Source: Candidatus Rokuibacteriota bacterium
Lineage (GTDB): Bacteria > Methylomirabilota > Methylomirabilia > Rokubacteriales > CSP1-6
NCBI GenBank assembly: GCA_016179925.1
Contig: JACPCG010000098.1
Location: 1-46,792 of the forward strand
Reading direction: 5' to 3'
DNA: 46,792 nucleotides
In this document: in pieces, positions 8,523 through 12,975 of the stretch
Position numbering within the stretch: the first letter of the stretch is position 1
Layout of the letters: every line of letters starts with the position of its first letter
The notes under the pieces: generated by a model
Databases searched by the model: none
What the model saw: the letters and a program-made list of their open reading frames with translations, nothing else
Told to the model about the DNA's origin: nothing
Position numbers and translations under genes: made by a program

Positions 8523-9433
8523 CACGTCTTCTCCAGCGCGGAGAGCTCGTCCACGAGCGCACGGGTTGGGGGGTTCTTCGCCAGGTAGCCGTCCCACGCC
8601 GCCTCCCCCACACCGAGGATCTCGCGAATCGCCCGGATCGCCTCGGCGGGCTTCGGCGCTTTGCCGTGCCACTCCGGGTCGTTCTCCATGAACGAGACGC
8701 CCTTGCCCTTGACCGTGTGCGCGACGACGATGACGGGCCCGACCGTGGCCTCGGCCTGGTCGAGGGCCTTCGCGATCTGGTCGAAGTCGTGGCCGTCGAT
8801 CTCGATCACGGTCCAGCCGAAGGCCTGCCACTTGGCCAGGACCGGCTCGAGGTCGAGGATCTTCGCCACGAAGTTGTCGAGCTGGATCTTGTTGTAGTCG
8901 AGGATGACGGTGAGGTTGTCGAGCCCGTGCATGGGCCGGCCGAGCTTCGGCGCCGACATCGCCGCCTCCCAGACCTGGCCCTCCTGGATCTCGCCGTCGC
9001 CGAGGATGCAGTAGACGCGGGCGGGGGAACGCCGCAATCGGAGGCCGAGCGCCAGCCCCAGCGAGATCGAGAGTCCCTGGCCGAGCGAGCCCGTTGCGGC
9101 CTCGATGCCGGGCAACATCGTGCGGTCGGGATGACCCTGGAGCGGCGAGCCCAGCTTGCGCAGCGTGATGAGCTGCGACTCGGGGAAGTAGCCGGCCTTG
9201 GCCATCACCGTGTAGAGCGCGGGCACCGCGTGGCCCTTCGAGAGGACGACGCGGTCGCGGTCGGGCCAGTCGGGGTACCGCGGATCGTGCCGGAGCCGCC
9301 CGAAGTAGAGCGCGGTGAGGATGTCGATGACCGAGAGCGAGCCGCCCGGGTGCCCGGAGCCCGCGTGGGTGAGCATGCGGATGATCTGCACGCGGCACTC
9401 GCGGGCCGTCAGGACCAGACGCGCGTCTGCCAT
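8522..9433 (-). CDS. transketolase N-terminal subunit
   Basis: 303 residues with the thiamine-diphosphate/Mg-binding half: GHPGGSLSVIDILTALYF, LSKGHAVPALY, GSLGQGLSISLGLALG, and the GDGEIQEGQVWEAAM metal motif followed by LDYNKIQ. Together with the next gene it makes the complete enzyme. Its ATG shares one base with the pmbA stop, linking carbohydrate metabolism genes to the tldD-pmbA set by translational coupling. Confidence 0.93.
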   Translation of the reverse strand: MADARLVLTARECRVQIIRMLTHAGSGHPGGSLSVIDILTALYFGRLRHDPRYPDWPDRDRVVLSKGHAVPALYTVMAKAGYFPESQLITLRKLGSPLQGHPDRTMLPGIEAATGSLGQGLSISLGLALGLRLRRSPARVYCILGDGEIQEGQVWEAAMSAPKLGRPMHGLDNLTVILDYNKIQLDNFVAKILDLEPVLAKWQAFGWTVIEIDGHDFDQIAKALDQAEATVGPVIVVAHTVKGKGVSFMENDPEWHGKAPKPAEAIRAIREILGVGEAAWDGYLAKNPPTRALVDELSALEKT

Positions 9434-11004
9434 CAGTCGGGGCTCCTTGCGATCGCGTCGACGCGAACACCCCGGACGGCGATCTCGGGGGCGTAGACGA
9501 CCTCGTCCGCCGCCCAGACGATCGTGCCCTTCACGTCGCTGGTGATGCCGACGATGTTGTTGAGAATCGTGGCAATGTTGTCGTTGATCCGGATCGCGTT
9601 GGCCCGGATGGGCGCCGTGAGCCGCCCGTCGCGAATGATATAGGAATCCGCGACGACCGTACAGGTGAAATCGCCCGCGCGCAGGCCGTTGATCGGGTAC
9701 GTGTACCAGATCCGGCCGATGTACAGGCCGTCTCGCACGCGGCGAAAGAGCTCCTCGCGCGTCACCCCCTCGGCGCCCTGGACGACGACGTTGGACGCGG
9801 CGATATCCGGCTGGCTGTCGAACCGGCGCCCGCCGCCGGCCCCGAAGCGGAAGCCGTTGCGGGGTACCAGCGCGGCTTCGGCGGTCGGGCCGGTGGCGCC
9901 CAATTTTTCGGCGAGCGTCGGATCGCGCAAGAGCCGCTGGGTCTCGTACCAGCTCGAGAGGCTGCCGGCGAGGACGCCGTTCCTGATGAGGTCCGTGCGG
10001 CCGGTGGGCAGCCCCTCGCACGTGATCCCCTTGGAGCCCATGAGCCCCGGGCCGGCGCCGTGGTCGTAGACCGTGAGGAGGGGCGAGGCGACGGGCCGCC
10101 CGAGCTTGCCGAGGAACGGCGTGTTCGAGGCGTAGAACGCGCGCGCCGTGCAGGCCGGGACGACGATGTTGTTCAGGAGGTCCGCGACGGGCTGCCGGGC
10201 GAAGACCACGGTGTACTCGCCCGGCGGCACCCGCTCGCCGCCGATCGCGCTGATCGCGTTCTGGGCGGCGTCCACGCCCGCCTCGTCGGTGAAGTGGTCG
10301 AGGCGCGTCCCCGTGAACGCGCCGGAGCCCTTGGCGGCGTGCGCCTCGACCATCGCGGTCACGAACGCGGTGAGGAGCGTCGACTCGTCGGTCTGGACGG
10401 AAGGCATGCGGGTCGAGACGATCGCGATCCGCTCCTGGAGGATCGTGACGTCGCCGCCCAGGATGAGGGCGAGGCGGCGGAGCGCCGCCTCGCTCCCCGC
10501 GAGGTCTGCGAGCCGCGCGGACGCCATGAACGTCGTGAGCGCGCCGTTGACGACCCTCCAGCCCGCCTCGACGAGCTGCGCGTCGTCGAGCGCCATCAGG
10601 GCGGGGTCGTGGTACCCGGTGAGGGCGCGCGGCTCGCGCGAGGGCTGCGGCAGCGAGACGAACTCGGGATCGGCGACGGCGGCGCGGCGCGCCTTGTCGA
10701 GCGCCCGCTCGGCGCCCCGGAGCGTCAGGTCGCTCGGCTCGCTCCCGAAGCCGATGAGCCGCCCCGCCGGCGAGTCGAACACCGCCTGGATGCCGAGGCC
10801 GTGGGACTCGACTGACTTCGGCTCCTCGACGCCGTTGCAGGGCACGTGCGAGGTGTAATTGAGGCGCGTGAGCAGCGCGCCGTTGGCTGCCGTGAAGACC
10901 TCGGCCTCGACCACGCCGCGCTGGCTCCTGACGAAGTCGAACGCCTGCTGGGCCGCCCGCGCGAGCTCGGCCGCCGTCCGGATCCCGTCAGTGAGCGGGA
11001 ACAC
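9433..11004 (-). CDS. pmbA: TldE/PmbA-like subunit of a TldD/E-type protease
   Basis: About 523 residues from a GTG at 11004. The N-terminal TldD/PmbA domain, middle domain and C-terminal region are present. The HExxxH metal motif of TldD is absent, as expected for the non-catalytic TldE/PmbA partner. Conserved phrases include TYPINGLRAGDFTCTVVADS and GLMGSKGITCEGLPTGRTDL. TldD/E heterodimers trim unfolded or modified peptides (microcin B17, CcdA). Its GTG lies inside the last 17 bases of the rhodanese gene, and its stop overlaps the transketolase start. No ATG lies at a sensible position, so the start is inferred. Confidence 0.88.
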   Translation of the reverse strand: MFPLTDGIRTAAELARAAQQAFDFVRSQRGVVEAEVFTAANGALLTRLNYTSHVPCNGVEEPKSVESHGLGIQAVFDSPAGRLIGFGSEPSDLTLRGAERALDKARRAAVADPEFVSLPQPSREPRALTGYHDPALMALDDAQLVEAGWRVVNGALTTFMASARLADLAGSEAALRRLALILGGDVTILQERIAIVSTRMPSVQTDESTLLTAFVTAMVEAHAAKGSGAFTGTRLDHFTDEAGVDAAQNAISAIGGERVPPGEYTVVFARQPVADLLNNIVVPACTARAFYASNTPFLGKLGRPVASPLLTVYDHGAGPGLMGSKGITCEGLPTGRTDLIRNGVLAGSLSSWYETQRLLRDPTLAEKLGATGPTAEAALVPRNGFRFGAGGGRRFDSQPDIAASNVVVQGAEGVTREELFRRVRDGLYIGRIWYTYPINGLRAGDFTCTVVADSYIIRDGRLTAPIRANAIRINDNIATILNNIVGITSDVKGTIVWAADEVVYAPEIAVRGVRVDAIARSPD

Positions 11005-11416
11005 CGCGGGGGTTCTTCCCCTCGACGGGATAGCCCTTGGCGATCCACCCCGGGAGCCCTTCGTCGAGGACGCGGTGGTTCCGCCATCCGAGCCGGTAGA
11101 GGACGTTGCTGGCCCCACGGGACAGCGCGTGGGGGCAGGTTCAATAGAAGACGACGAGCCCCGTCTTCGAGATCTCGTACGCGCGGTCGGGCACGGCGCG
11201 GAGCGGCATCGAGCGGGCGCCCTTGATGTGGACCTCGACGTACGCGTCCCAGCGGCGCACGTCGATGATGTCGGCCCTGATCCCGCGGTCGAGGAGGGCC
11301 TTGAGCTCGTCCACCGAGATGAAGGCGACGGGCGACTCGGGCGGCGCCGCCGGCGCGGCGCCGACGAGCAGGACGGTGACGGCCACGGCGACGCCGAGGG
11401 CGCCGCGCACGCTCAA
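10988..11416 (-). CDS. secreted rhodanese-domain protein with in-frame TGA at the catalytic Cys (candidate selenoprotein)
   Basis: Read through one TGA (11143-11141), this is 142 residues. A signal peptide (about residues 1-23, ending GAAPA) follows a TTG start that overlaps the tldD stop; a GTG at 11410 is the alternative. The rhodanese fold is intact on both sides of the TGA: ADIIDVRRWDAYVEVHIKGA before it, and LDEGLPGWIAKGYPVEG after it. The TGA is codon 92 in VVFY-TGA-TCPH, exactly where related rhodaneses have the persulfide-forming Cys (YCTCPH). A hairpin begins six bases after it. I read it as selenocysteine. The alternatives are a nonsense mutation or a TGC-to-TGA sequencing error. 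Annotation software would truncate it or miss the second half. Confidence 0.7.
11113..11134 (-). promoter_or_regulatory. candidate bacterial SECIS-like hairpin after the TGA
   Basis: Directly 3' of the TGA on the coding strand, CCCCACG pairs with CGTGGGG (7 bp, all Watson-Crick) around the 8-base loop CGCTGTCC. The loop has G at its second position and an internal GU, features used by models of bacterial SECIS elements. The loop begins 13 bases after the TGA, somewhat closer than the roughly 17 bases in E. coli fdhF, which weakens the case. Confidence 0.5.
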
Positions 11417-12975
11417 CGCCCCGTGAGCCTGGCGCGGCTGCGCATCGTCGGCCCGCCGTTGCCGAGCTTCCTGGTCTGCATGGGTTGCCCCTTGCCGCAG
11501 TTCGGGATCGGATAGAGGCGGAAGTCCGAGCCTGCCGCGTCCACGTTCATGAGATAGTCGCGCGAGTCGGCGGCGATGCCGCCGTCCCGGTAGAGGCGGC
11601 CGAGCTCGCCGTTCCTGATCTCGTAGACCCGGCGCGCCGAGATGCGGAAGTTCTCGCGGCTCTCGGCGATGGACGGCGTGCGGTGCCCCGCCAGGTACCA
11701 GCCGCGGTCCACCTCGCGGACGATCTCCTCGGCCGGGCGCGTCCCCGCCGCGAACACCGTGTTCGACATGCGGACGAGCGGCACGAGCGCCGCGTCCGTC
11801 GCCTTCCAGTGCCCGTTCGGCGCGCCGCCGAAGATCGCCGCGGTCTGGCGGCTGTTCATGAAGCCGCGGAAGATGCCCTCCTCGATGTGGACGACGCGGC
11901 GCGCGGGCGTGCCCTCGTGGTCGTACGCGTAGTGGCCGTAGCCGGGGAGCGACGGGTCGGAGTACGCGGTCACGAGGGACGAGGCGACCCGCCGGCCGAC
12001 GTGGTGCTCCGTGAGGCCGCCGAGGAGCCACGAGCGCCCCGCGTACGCAGTCTCCATCTTGAGCGCGCGGTCCAGCTCGACGGGATGGCCGACGATCTCG
12101 TGCGCGACGAGGGTGTTGTAGTGCGGGTCCGTGACGACGACGACCTCGCGCTCGGTCGAGGGCAGCGGCGGCGCGGCGGCGAGCTCCACACCCTCGCGCG
12201 CCAGGGCCAGCGCGAACTCGCGGAACGTCGGGAACCGGATGAGCGGCTCGTCCACGCCCGCGAGCAGGATCTCCCAGCCGCGCTGGTGGCCCAGGGCGTC
12301 GTGGAGGCCCTGGCTCGTCTCGCCCGCGACCGCCACGACCGAGCACGATCCCTGTGTGAGGGCGAAGGCCTGGTCGATCAGGGCGCCGTCGGTGGAGGCG
12401 AAGAGCTCGCGTGAGAGCTGGGTGAGGGTCGTGATGGCGTTGTACTTGAGCGCCGGCGCCACCGCGGCGACCTGCCGAGAGACGTCCGCGGCGTAGCGGA
12501 TCATCTCGGCGAGGCCGACCGTGCGGGGGTCCACGCGATAGACGGCGGCAACCGAGTCCTCGCGGACCTCGACCCGGTGGAGCCGCGTGTCGGCGAGCGC
12601 CTCGCCGAGGGCGCCGAACTTCTCCCGCGCGTCCGCCTTCATCTCGGCGTTGACCGCGGCGCGGCGGCGGGCGCGCTCGAGCGCCTCGCGGATGAGCGTG
12701 GCGAGCTCACCCGCATCGACGGCGCCGAGCGTGAGGCCCACGTAGCCGGGCGCGACCGTCCGGCCGCCCGCGAGGACCCGCACGCCCAGCGCGAGCGTGG
12801 CGTCGTCCCCCGAGCCCTTCGGCGTTCCGTTCTCGGCGGAGGCGTACTTGCCCTCCACCACCTCCAGGCGCAGGTCGGCGTAGCGCAGGTCGGGGAACCG
12901 CCGCACGTCCTCCAGGCACGCCTGGACGACGGGCTTGAGGGCGTCGATCAGCTCGACGGCGATCGGCCACGACAC
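11413..12975 (-). CDS. tldD: TldD-family metalloprotease, catalytic subunit
   Basis: About 520 residues from a GTG at 12975. The zinc motif HEIVGHPVE (His292, Glu293, His297 by my count) and the C-terminal NCGKGQPMQTRKLGNGGP, with the conserved Cys metal ligand, mark the active TldD subunit. YDHEGTPARRVVHIEEG is also typical. It should pair with the pmbA product 1.5 kb downstream. Repeat element copy 1 ends 18 bases upstream, so the promoter or ribosome site may lie in or next to the element. The open frame extends far upstream through the element but shows no protein-like sequence there. Confidence 0.92.
   Translation of the reverse strand: MSWPIAVELIDALKPVVQACLEDVRRFPDLRYADLRLEVVEGKYASAENGTPKGSGDDATLALGVRVLAGGRTVAPGYVGLTLGAVDAGELATLIREALERARRRAAVNAEMKADAREKFGALGEALADTRLHRVEVREDSVAAVYRVDPRTVGLAEMIRYAADVSRQVAAVAPALKYNAITTLTQLSRELFASTDGALIDQAFALTQGSCSVVAVAGETSQGLHDALGHQRGWEILLAGVDEPLIRFPTFREFALALAREGVELAAAPPLPSTEREVVVVTDPHYNTLVAHEIVGHPVELDRALKMETAYAGRSWLLGGLTEHHVGRRVASSLVTAYSDPSLPGYGHYAYDHEGTPARRVVHIEEGIFRGFMNSRQTAAIFGGAPNGHWKATDAALVPLVRMSNTVFAAGTRPAEEIVREVDRGWYLAGHRTPSIAESRENFRISARRVYEIRNGELGRLYRDGGIAADSRDYLMNVDAAGSDFRLYPIPNCGKGQPMQTRKLGNGGPTMRSRARLTGR

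Follow-up and report, generated by a model that had tools for sequence, protein, structure and literature searches.

Selenocysteine (Sec)-containing rhodaneses have been described in several forms. A 2026 inventory lists five, with the motifs UxxS, UxxG, CxU, UxxG, and UxxxxU, and the UxC motif that we sought among its Sec-rhodanese motifs was absent (PMC13188914). Forms 1, 2, and 4 (UxxS and UxxG) have a rhodanese domain and a predicted active-site Sec (PMC13188914, PMC9312934; also PMC1088965), as does the Rokubacteria protein analyzed here, but judged by the listed motifs alone they are without the Cys at +2 seen in its UxCPH loop. The best NCBIfam match of this protein was rhodanese-like selenoprotein form 3 (NF041203, rhodanese_LYCAU), at 45.8 bits, under the curated cutoff of 115. 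Form 3 likewise combines a rhodanese domain with two chalcogen residues one apart, one of which is Sec. However, its arrangement is CxU, in contrast to UxC in all 38 orthologues found here, and its loop reads UPxEATSAR rather than CPHALxRGA. The 2026 inventory also draws attention to one MAG from Methylomirabilota in which 63 selenoproteins were predicted (PMC13188914). Thus, the Sec richness of this phylum was already known. Rokubacteria belong to it.

The window analyzed was a stretch of 46,792 nucleotides from a Candidatus Rokuibacteriota contig (JACPCG010000098.1, assembly GCA_016179925.1). Read from 11416 on the minus strand, one frame encodes a continuous rhodanese of about 140 amino acids, the only interruption being a TGA at 11143-11141 (LSVRGALG...VVFY-TGA-TCPHALSRGAS...GWIAKGYPVEG...PAH-TGA). 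The original prediction had placed the gene at 10988-11416 with TGA at codon 92, and both were borne out, with the gene itself lying on the minus strand. The TGA is codon 92 counted from 11416 and codon 90 counted from the GTG at 11410-11408, which is the probable start codon. This GTG was preferred over the TTG upstream of it because that TTG overlaps the stop codon of tldD and because relatives start with MR or VR at this point. The coding sequence would then span 10988..11410 (minus strand), with its terminal TGA at 10990-10988, and yield about 140 amino acids if UGA is read as Sec. The predicted Sec codon (11141..11143, minus strand) occupies the catalytic position of the rhodanese in the motif YUTCPH, and an invariant Cys (TGC; 11135..11137, minus strand) is the second active-site residue and completes the UxC motif. 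Five TGAs in the window had coding-like composition on both sides, and among them only that at 11143-11141 was seen to lie within a protein domain.

When the TGA was entered as Cys, the Pfam Rhodanese domain (PF00581) covered residues 34 to 126, across the TGA, with an E value of 1.9e-13 and 51.1 bits against a gathering cutoff of 22.2. Both halves of the rhodanese lie in one frame with a single TGA between them, as first claimed. A rhodanese fold was predicted by AlphaFold2 (pLDDT of 86, pTM of 0.76), and the best PDB matches of the model were single-domain rhodaneses (E values down to 1.5e-9). In profile alignments, Sec was aligned with the Cys that opens the active-site loop of solved rhodaneses. 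The single-domain rhodaneses BH2092 (3nhv), Alr3790 (3ilm), PspE (2jtq), and the YgaP rhodanese (5hbo) share the fold or sequence family, and it was their catalytic Cys region that these alignments placed at the Sec of the Rokubacteria protein. To our knowledge, they all use Cys and are without the UxCPH loop.

For a candidate Sec codon, whether Cys or TGA occupies the site in homologues is informative, and such an alignment had been proposed with the original prediction. In a search of 148 related genomes, orthologues with an in-frame TGA were found throughout the family of the source genome. TGA stood at the Sec codon in 38/38 distinct orthologues, with Cys two codons on in every one, and their shared motif was Y-U-[TASG]-C-P-H-A-L-[AS]-[RS]. 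The terminal stop varied among the same orthologues (27 TGA, 11 TAG), which argues that the internal TGA is selected as TGA. A non-exhaustive scan of 85,462 species genomes with two short peptide patterns gave 32 relatives, 30 with TGA and 2 with Cys at the site. The genomes with TGA comprised 28 named Rokubacteria or Rokuibacteriota, one Proteobacteria MAG, and one Deltaproteobacteria MAG. The Cys versions (loci L117 and L119) came from Melainabacteria (YCSCPH) and WOR-3 (FYCACPH). SelB exceeded its cutoff in both distant (non-Rokubacteria) TGA genomes and in neither Cys genome. The decoding of UGA as Sec is supported by the conservation of TGA within the family and beyond it and by the homologues that carry Cys instead, whose genomes had no SelB over the cutoff.

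A bacterial SECIS is a hairpin directly 3' of the UGA, with a small apical loop containing G at about 16 to 37 nt from the UGA. A conserved hairpin of the family (GCTG-K-CC-CG-K-GG-GG-CCAGC) fits this description, with a GKG triloop from 22 nt past the UGA. At the present locus, the putative SECIS is GCTG-T-CCC-GTG-GGG-C-CAGC (11108..11126, minus strand), with its apical triloop at 11118-11116; the loop begins 22 nt from the TGA. Third-position entropy was compared over 63 degenerate codon columns, and the five in the stem (CTG, TCC/GCC, GGG, GCC, and AGC) had the five lowest values (Mann-Whitney p=1.2e-4 versus the rest, whose median was 1.03 bits), and the codon with its third base in the loop varied freely. 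Stem pairing was 6.9/8 pairs, compared with 4.2 in synonymous shuffles, and the hairpin pattern occurred once in the window, where none was expected. At both distant TGA loci, the amino acids changed from RG to SL and the stem was kept, with one pair changed from C-G to A-U in a compensatory manner; this is probably a single evolutionary event seen twice. The hairpin was not retained in the two Cys homologues.

Pairs 22-32 and 25-29 were disrupted in some orthologues. Within the close orthologues no covariation was found, because the stem is nearly invariant. The free energy was not distinctive against synonymous shuffles (mean of -12.3 versus -11.0). Thus, it is synonymous constraint and stem pairing that carry the argument for a SECIS. 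Minimum-energy folding of this sequence alone favored another hairpin (-12.2 versus -9.8 kcal/mol). A 7-bp hairpin, CCCCCAC/GTGGGG, had been named originally; it is present in this sequence and slightly more stable, but it is not conserved, as 23 of the 38 orthologues have CCG where CCC is required (Pro third position). The conserved hairpin begins a few bases 3' of the start of the 7-bp one. Thus, a constrained SECIS-like hairpin does support the Sec reading, though not the hairpin first proposed.

The selenocysteine machinery was sought in the source assembly (G000), a Rokubacteria-type MAG that is 81% complete in 223 contigs. The selD gene was found (G000:C102:4243-5184, locus L011) with one in-frame TGA, in AACAGUASKM, where SelD usually carries its Sec; the gene that follows encodes a phosphonate-type substrate-binding protein. 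Of the sel genes proposed for checking, the search of the 81%-complete assembly recovered selD but not selA, selB, or selC. Each tRNA-Sec match proved to be a tRNA for Ser, Leu, or Thr, and the best SelB matches were under the cutoff and covered the N-terminal GTPase part only. Among 60 relatives, SelB was over the cutoff in 55 and tRNA-Sec in 52, and in three of the relatives (G004, G011, and G016) selC-selA-selB are clustered with ileS and lspA as a single block. In the source genome, the ileS orthologue was also absent, the best matches being 29 to 32% identical and resembling a different synthetase. Since the adjoining and essential ileS is missing too, there is a strong case that the sel block is missing from the assembly and not from the organism. 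The absence of sel genes from a complete genome, named earlier as evidence against Sec, is thus inapplicable to this assembly. The reading of UGA as Sec is further supported by two other finds in the source genome, a SelD with Sec and a second Sec rhodanese, together with selB and tRNA-Sec in nearly all relatives.

The inserted residue is not identified by an in-frame UGA alone, and reassignment of UGA (e.g., to Trp) or low-level readthrough without Sec would also carry translation through the codon. However, UGA is the apparent terminator of the same gene in 27 of the 38 orthologues, Cys takes the position of the UGA in homologues, genes for SelB and tRNA-Sec are common among the relatives, and the UGA in selD falls on the Sec site known for SelD. 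This explanation is very unlikely.

The neighborhood of the gene raises another alternative. Upstream lies a tldD-type metallopeptidase gene (11413..12975, minus strand, start approximate), the stop of which overlaps the rhodanese start region. Downstream lies a tldE/pmbA-type gene (9433..11004, minus strand), the likely GTG start of which, at 11004, overlaps the rhodanese 3' end. Both products match the PmbA_TldD C-terminal domain. Across 9433-12975 the flanking genes slightly overlap the rhodanese, and a stop at the UGA might influence how tldE is translated. Thus, UGA could be imagined as a true stop and the 3' half as a separate or regulatory frame, for example, one that makes tldE translation respond to selenium status, given the 17-base overlap of tldE with the end of the rhodanese. 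But the active-site loop and the second half are highly conserved as protein past the UGA, the fold requires both halves, and regulation through Sec decoding would add to Sec insertion, not replace it, so that two separate proteins are highly improbable. A sequencing error or pseudogene, in which a Cys codon was mistaken or had decayed in one assembly, would need just one base (TGC or TGT to TGA) in what is a fragmented MAG, but with the same TGA in all 38 distinct orthologues, from about two dozen genera, and a strongly constrained flanking protein, its probability is close to nil. From the sequence evidence, we are therefore highly confident that this is a functional selenoprotein gene, with UGA predicted to encode Sec in a single-domain rhodanese.

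The Sec rhodanese was located between tldD and tldE at almost all Rokubacteria loci that had sufficient flanking sequence and not at the distant loci. At two Rokubacteria loci (L093 and L094), neither tldD nor tldE adjoined it. As reported previously, TldD/TldE is a heterodimeric metalloprotease in Escherichia coli (PMC5810440). The Sec rhodanese may have a functional tie to the flanking TldD/TldE. The N-terminus encoded at 11335..11410 (minus strand) is hydrophobic and, judged by eye, resembles a Sec-type signal peptide (MRGALGVAVAVTVLLVGAAPAAPP); in the orthologues, a hydrophobic N-terminus followed by an AAPAAPP region is conserved. The protein is thus probably exported. A Sec rhodanese that is exported and keeps its place between tldD and tldE would hint at an unexplored selenium-dependent process.

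In the proposed mechanism, SelB and tRNA-Sec would decode the UGA at 11143-11141 as Sec, guided by the SECIS directly downstream. Sec would take the place of the catalytic nucleophilic Cys in the rhodanese loop, paired with the invariant Cys at +2. The selenolate would attack the substrate (sulfane-sulfur, disulfide, or peroxide), after which the neighboring Cys would resolve the intermediate as a selenenyl-sulfide. We give this course of catalysis about an even chance of being correct. With export, catalysis, and substrate as suggested, the extracytoplasmic role of the UxC protein may be that of a sulfurtransferase or thiol oxidoreductase.

According to a 2022 review, proteins with the same domain and a different Sec motif belong to different subfamilies (PMC9312934). 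By this motif criterion, UxC would represent a new subfamily. Relatives of NF041203 with the CxU arrangement (Y-C-T-U-P-[ND]-E) coexist with UxC in the UxC-bearing genomes. We consider it likely, with less assurance than for the Sec reading itself, that the Rokubacteria proteins form an uncatalogued exported UxC Sec-rhodanese subfamily that sits between tldD and tldE across the group and mirrors the coexisting CxU type in its motif, with UxU in a sister family. If so, Sec would have been introduced at one or the other position of a single rhodanese active-site motif, or at both. The occurrence of UxC, CxU, UxU, and CxC versions of one motif within one bacterial class would offer a natural test of the contribution of selenium at each position. 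Since standard gene callers would stop or split the protein at the UGA, this conserved enzyme is likely misannotated in Rokubacteria, which are common in soil and groundwater.

Several further rhodaneses with in-frame TGA were observed. The second Sec rhodanese of the source genome (G000:C38:11545-11880, locus L145) is of the CxU type, with an in-frame TGA in AYCTUPDEATSARV. In one genome of the sister family (G068:C195, loci L077 and L139), TGA stands at both active-site positions (YUTUPGEGSAAGA), a possible double-Sec UxU, and other relatives from the class also have matches with two TGAs. In another genome (G024:C266:15751-16449, locus L122), two CxU-type rhodanese genes adjoin each other, each with TGA at the Sec position, and their motifs are IVLYCTUPNEATSARA and IIFYCAUPAEATAAGQ.
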